This document shows, in pieces, positions 4,649-40,687 of a stretch of 64,000 nt of DNA. Position 1 is the first letter of the stretch. Every line of letters starts with the position of its first letter. Both the position numbers and the translations under genes were made by a program. A model generated the notes under the pieces. It did no database searches. It was not told the DNA's origin and saw only the letters and a list, made by a program, of their open reading frames with translations. The DNA lies in the NCBI GenBank assembly GCA_009760855.2, contig WPIO01000055.1, forward strand, positions 2,630,001 through 2,694,000, read 5' to 3'. The stretch is from Cristatella mucedo. Its lineage: Eukaryota; Bryozoa; Phylactolaemata; Cristatellidae.

Positions 4649-4756
4649 GTGCAGCTGGCCTTTGCGCTTGCCATTCTGCTGACATTCTCGTCGGCCTTGG
4701 CAGCAGCGCCTCGTCGGCAAAGACCTCACATCGTAGTTGTGACCGTGGATGACGTG
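4649..4756 (+). CDS. Sulfatase exon 1 of those found: signal peptide and first metal motif
   Basis: The 36 codons give a hydrophobic stretch ([18 protein letters not shown]) that looks like most of a signal peptide. It is followed by [14 protein letters not shown], the first strand of the sulfatase fold with its two metal-binding Asp residues. The donor gtaaga follows 4756 in phase 0. The frame is open upstream but holds no ATG back to 4385, so I start at the pyrimidine-rich acceptor ending at 4648 (ctgcttctgccag). The initiating Met must lie in an upstream exon that I could not identify. Confidence 0.75.

Positions 4757-40687: not shown

Follow-up and report, generated by a model that had tools for sequence, protein, structure and literature searches.

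An ARSB-type sulfatase-fold gene of Cristatella mucedo with an open reading frame and most core active-site residues replaced

Gene structure and sulfatase homology

The window, that is, the whole stretch of DNA analysed, comprises 64,000 nt of Cristatella mucedo contig WPIO01000055.1 (positions 2630001-2694000, contig C507 here) from a genome of 572 Mb in 688 contigs. On its plus strand, positions 4649..40687 hold a ten-exon chain coding for an ARSB-type sulfatase-fold protein. The frame comprises 586 codons without an internal stop, ends in a TGA, and is divided by nine GT-AG introns whose phases all match. The first-pass annotation had described a sulfatase scaffold spread over ten exons; the motifs it named were found on the plus strand, and the chain could be rebuilt with GT-AG borders, matching phases, and no stops. 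A first joining contained eight exons and 435 residues, and exons 5 and 9 were added to the model later, by eye from the sequence. The features are as follows, with residues numbered as in ARSB.

2471..2506, plus strand: doubtful candidate for a start exon (MMTELPMRLLPH) that would join exon 1 in phase 0
4649..4756, plus strand: exon 1; hydrophobic leader, D53 and D54 kept
9517..9676, plus strand: exon 2; Cys91 to Ala, Pro93 to Ala, Arg95 kept
12133..12245, plus strand: exon 3; Lys145 to Gln
19921..20034, plus strand: exon 4; His147 to Asp
26805..26930, plus strand: exon 5; spotted by eye, phases fit, weak tblastn match with a composed query (E 0.025)
30189..30318, plus strand: exon 6; His242 to Arg
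31378..31531, plus strand: exon 7; Asp300 and Asn301 lost
31532..31691, plus strand: putative intron 7; 160 bp, weakest donor, one match genome-wide (itself), no counterpart in the paralogues read
31692..31855, plus strand: exon 8; Lys318 to Arg
35597..35766, plus strand: exon 9; spotted by eye, phases fit, aligned with paralogues, no tblastn match
40166..40687, plus strand: exon 10; ends in a tail of 44 residues, part of it hydrophobic, then the TGA stop

The eight-exon joining matched the Pfam Sulfatase family (PF00884) with an E value of 2.1e-23 and a score of 83.5 bits (cut-off, 25). A PDB search with the same 435 residues returned 48 distinct sequences at E <= 0.001, the best of which was 1fsu (N-acetylgalactosamine-4-sulfatase, ARSB; E 3.9e-36). 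Judged from these sequence comparisons, the likeness of the window gene to sulfatases is far beyond chance, and the comparison with ARSB identified a homologous sulfatase domain of family S1_2 (ARSB/ARSI/ARSJ type), the family in which the accessible text of the SulfAtlas paper places ARSB and 1fsu (PMC5066984). The window protein shares with human ARSB the scaffold from PHIVVV to the C-terminal LFNV..DP..ERHNL and W-PW motifs. It is 29% identical to ARSB across 463 aligned residues, differs at 7 of 10 core active-site residues (including Cys to Ala), and carries an extra C-terminal tail.

Two parts of the model are putative. Exon 1 opens behind an AG, and no ATG occurs in its frame, which is open from position 4367. 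Within the first 4640 bases, only the stretch at 2471-2506 offers an open ATG at most 150 bases from a GTRAG donor of the right phase. Such donors were equally common elsewhere in the window (one here versus a mean of 2.8 across 26 stretches of equal length), and we therefore dropped this stretch as evidence for a start exon, since it did no better than chance. The donor of intron 7 agrees with the consensus at 5 of 9 positions, the lowest count among the nine donors, and the frame breaks if the segment is left unspliced. No intron was found at this position in the paralogues read (C656, C77, C441a, and C441b). We also considered a repeat insertion, but the 160 bases gave a single genome match, the segment itself; thus, it does not resemble a recent repeat insertion, although its status as an intron is still putative. 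The junctions VDDV/G and GQ/W (the slash marks the splice) each lie one base off those of C441, and compensating changes would therefore be needed if the introns are the same.

Apart from the exons, open-frame fragments resembling LINE proteins were observed in the window at 15560-16276, 32498-33304, 44037-46816, and 51530-53634. The open frame at 32501-33304 matched no Pfam family above the cut-off, and neither did a 223-residue open frame at 60997-61668 that looked Ig-like by eye. On contig C688, the mitochondrial COX1 is open under the invertebrate code 5, in which TGA reads as Trp.

Replacements at the active site

Ten core residues were chosen from family knowledge: D53, D54, C91, R95, K145, H147, H242, D300, N301, and K318. 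We take Lys145, His147, His242, and Lys318 to be the catalytic residues and D53, D54, D300, and N301 the calcium ligands. Only three of the ten (D53, D54, and R95) were kept, and seven were replaced. Where the formylglycine Cys91 belongs, codon 9625-9627 encodes Ala; Pro93 is also Ala (codon 9631-9633), a change absent from the earlier annotation, while Ser94 is kept, such that the C-x-P-S-R motif reads A-H-A-S-R at 9625. Neither the Cys nor the Ser from which an FGly-dependent S1_2 sulfatase forms its nucleophile is therefore present. The four residues taken as catalytic have become Gln (Lys145, codon 12243-12245), Asp (His147, codon 19924-19926), Arg (His242, codon 30222-30224), and Arg (Lys318, codon 31699-31701). 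Of the calcium ligands, D53 and D54 remain and the loop from 31464 has no Asp or Asn at the positions of D300 and N301; the partners of these two residues vary with the alignment, being Ala/Pro with three references and Leu/Ser with nine, with Asp and Asn absent from either. Thus, the Cys-to-Ala change at 9625, the GQWDLG sequence, the His-to-Arg change at 30222, the lost Asp/Asn loop, and the Lys-to-Arg change that had been read from the sequence in the first pass were all confirmed codon by codon. A Pro-to-Ala change alone in the sulfatase motif is common, being recorded for 369 sequences in the accessible text of the SulfAtlas paper (PMC5066984).

The losses were concentrated at the active site in an alignment to nine reference sequences (three copies from C656, C77, human ARSB, 6bia, 9hh3, and C441a and C441b where residues were present). 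Here, 3 of 10 core residues were kept versus 39 of 52 other invariant residues, Pro93 being counted among the 52 (Fisher P = 0.009). Changes were nevertheless not confined to the core, since 13 of these 52 residues were altered too. With three references, a count that omitted Pro93 and Ser94, the difference (3/10 versus 86/159) was not significant (P = 0.19). We prefer the nine-reference set as the test because, when references are closely related, shared descent leaves many columns unchanged.

Sulfatases elsewhere in the genome

Among the best-scoring candidates, sulfatase exons were found on contigs C22, C77, C199, C221, C332, C441, and C656, with weaker matches on C33 and C398. The formylglycine Cys was kept in 11 of the 12 catalytic exons read outside the window (C22, C77, four of C656, C332, C199, two of C221, and C441a), and the twelfth, a C656 copy, was frameshifted; the motif scan required S/T-R after the motif, so copies lacking the whole motif would escape this count. 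For C441a and both genes of C221, the catalytic exon seems to stop at the CSP of the motif, followed by a GTGAG or GTAAG donor. A catalytic exon of C441b was looked for and not found. The same genome holds members of the FGE-sulfatase family (7 matches on C111, C653, and C668, with SUMF1- and SUMF2-type matches pooled). Given these canonical paralogues and the FGE-sulfatase family, the loss belongs to the window gene and not to the system.

The paralogues at hand were approximately 29 to 35% identical to the window gene. The nearest row in the tree was C441a, with 35% identity over 259 columns, a placement that is unsure given the long branch of the window gene and the partial C441 rows. C441a and C441b, the closest rows by tree path, share with the window gene the GSN-PLRG and DWY-T motifs and a phase-1 intron preceding the LASVD/MVSALD exon. 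In contrast to it, these two (both rows partial) keep GK/WHLG, HGP, SD/N, and RGxK, as well as the Cys in C441a, and lack intron 7. Neither a second copy with the same replacements nor an allelic contig was present among the 22 matches at E <= 0.1 (best-scoring candidates), of which 8 were the window's own exons and 14 lay on C77, C441, and C656.

A tandem cluster of ARSB-like genes occupies C656:1498001-1568000, where four other catalytic exons read keep C-x-P-S-R. The sixth ARSB-like copy of this cluster (minus strand, L015:9780-10000) has Cys changed to Arg, a frameshift within approximately 200 bases, and then a stop in the first frame; on its sequence, it is a decaying copy beside motif-keeping ones, in contrast to the window gene. 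An ARSB-like gene at C77:3117001-3127000 has the motif CAPTR instead of CxPSR, with Thr for Ser, and keeps 10 of 10 core residues. At C398:3076133-3207076, five weak PF00884 matches below the cut-off (E 0.02 to 0.16) are spread across approximately 130 kb and are possibly another sulfatase or related cluster.

Loss of catalysis, alternative readings, and possible role

The sequence provides good support for a loss of catalysis in the window gene: the nucleophile, the two Lys, the two His, and the Asp/Asn pair of metal ligands have been lost, and most of the deeply invariant residues stay. On the exon model, in which the start codon is putative, the gene combines a kept scaffold and an intact frame with lost catalytic residues, as a pseudoenzyme does. 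We consider it probable that the locus is a duplicated ARSB/ARSI/ARSJ-type (S1_2) sulfatase gene whose product has kept the fold without catalysis, that is, a pseudo-sulfatase.

The alternative that survives best, although we regard it as unlikely, is an unprocessed pseudogene. The locus would then be a decaying duplicate sulfatase whose clean chain results partly from exon borders chosen so as to steer clear of damage; in that case, the 160 bp would be an insertion that disabled the gene, and the ATG would truly be lost. The frame of exon 1 without an ATG, the weak and gene-specific intron 7, the very long branch with its widespread loss of invariant residues, and the existence of a decaying copy in another cluster of the same genome all fit this view; the end branch of the window gene measured 3.26, and its evolution is fast in general. 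Against it stand 586 codons without a stop and nine matching junctions, and the ten-exon chain shows no stops, frameshifts, or broken splice sites, on condition that the weak-donor segment of 160 bp is an intron. The argument made earlier, that stops or frameshifts would more likely have come first under random decay, stands up in a simple calculation: with a transition/transversion weight of 2, independent sites, a rate d per site, and indels ignored, the joint neutral probability that 7 or more of the 10 core residues change while neither a stop nor a splice loss occurs did not exceed 1.4e-7 at any of the seven rates tried. Additionally, overall GC3 has not fallen to the intron level. It was 0.739, compared with 0.498 (standard deviation, 0.032) in length-matched pieces drawn from the eight longer introns, and none of 5000 pieces reached it, but the excess was uneven by exon (0.42 in exon 3 versus 0.49 in its flanks, with exons 1 and 7 barely above their flanks). 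Mismatches to five references were more conservative than in shuffles (0 of 2000 for each reference), a comparison in which the matrix of the aligner biases toward such pairs. Both the high GC3 and the conservative changes may have been inherited from an active ancestor.

We consider it quite improbable that the protein is a repurposed hydrolase that performs another reaction on the sulfatase fold with a new nucleophile (for example, the Ser retained in AHASR) and a metal site formed by the DD pair. D53, D54, Ser94, and Arg95 are kept, as this reading would need, but neither Lys, neither His, and neither of the Asp/Asn metal ligands is left, and we know of no remaining residue that would activate a nucleophile or a leaving group. 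Superfamily relatives do use other nucleophiles, for example a Thr in YejM and LtaS (PMC7576196).

Least probable of all, and very much so, is that an ordinary active sulfatase was misread and the transcript uses other exons with canonical motifs, since, although the introns are large and the six frames of the window contain short patterns (C-x-P-S-R four times, GKW four times, and TDNG once), none of these matches had a sulfatase context by eye and the search thus gave short chance matches only, CxPSR with TG spacing, GKWHLG, RGxK with EGG, and DDxG..D had no match on either strand, and every sulfatase segment detected by tblastn occurs once.

As for the role of a pseudo-sulfatase at this locus, the first-pass annotation had proposed a non-catalytic sulfatase-fold protein that binds glycans or regulates. 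The non-catalytic part agrees with the replacements described above; glycan binding or regulation is an inference. With most of the residues needed for the reaction lost, the protein probably serves in binding or regulation instead of cleavage, and it is likely secreted. The message would be translated and the protein would enter the secretory pathway through the hydrophobic leader, whose hydropathy (2.02 over 19 residues) is the highest in the protein. A membrane tether through the hydrophobic stretch of the 44-residue C-terminal tail is possible (hydropathy 1.5 over 19 residues, with one Arg inside). Two N-glycosylation sequons and 12 Cys are compatible with a secreted protein and prove nothing. 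The remodelled pocket, with Arg95 kept and Arg in place of both Lys318 and His242, could bind a sulfated glycan or a partner and leave it uncut, and the protein might perhaps temper the paralogues with canonical residues, a relationship like the one ascribed to heparanase 2 and heparanase 1. A more specific reading, which we put forward only tentatively, is that of a dedicated animal pseudo-sulfatase of an undescribed family, secreted or membrane tethered and maintained by selection as a receptor or decoy that would bind sulfated glycans without cutting them, in a remodelled pocket that has gained arginines.

Sea-urchin arylsulfatase acts as a matrix protein. Heparanase 2 (HPSE2) has the fold of a glycosaminoglycan enzyme without catalysis and is said, in the accessible text of one paper, to counteract its active relative heparanase 1 (PMC12406646). 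It is an analogue in the manner of working only, since it belongs to another family (a relative of endoglycosidases, not sulfatases), and its role has been studied, whereas that of the window protein is predicted from sequence. The periplasmic domain of YejM/PbgA has a sulfatase-like fold with a role other than sulfate removal; earlier work had concluded that it is not an enzyme, and phosphatase activity was later reported, as far as the accessible text of that report goes (PMC7576196). Unlike the window protein, it is bacterial and membrane bound and keeps a Thr nucleophile. Nine sequences from Lentisphaerae and Planctomycetes without the positively charged motif residue may be inactive according to the accessible text of the SulfAtlas paper, which contains no animal family like the window gene (PMC5066984). 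Similarly, the accessible text of a review of nematode sulfation does not mention an inactive sulfatase (PMC8869759), and that of a Littorina paper merely names arylsulfatases among species-specific orthogroups (PMC8614816). In line with the earlier statement that no described family is known to have the whole set of replacements, no animal sulfatase with nearly the whole active site lost and an intact gene was found among the open-access papers searched, as judged mainly by titles and abstracts.

Other enzyme families have well-known pseudoenzymes, among them heparanase 2. If confirmed, the window gene would be a case of the sulfatase fold put to new use in reading sulfated glycans, and it would offer a naturally inactive form with which to ask what this fold binds.
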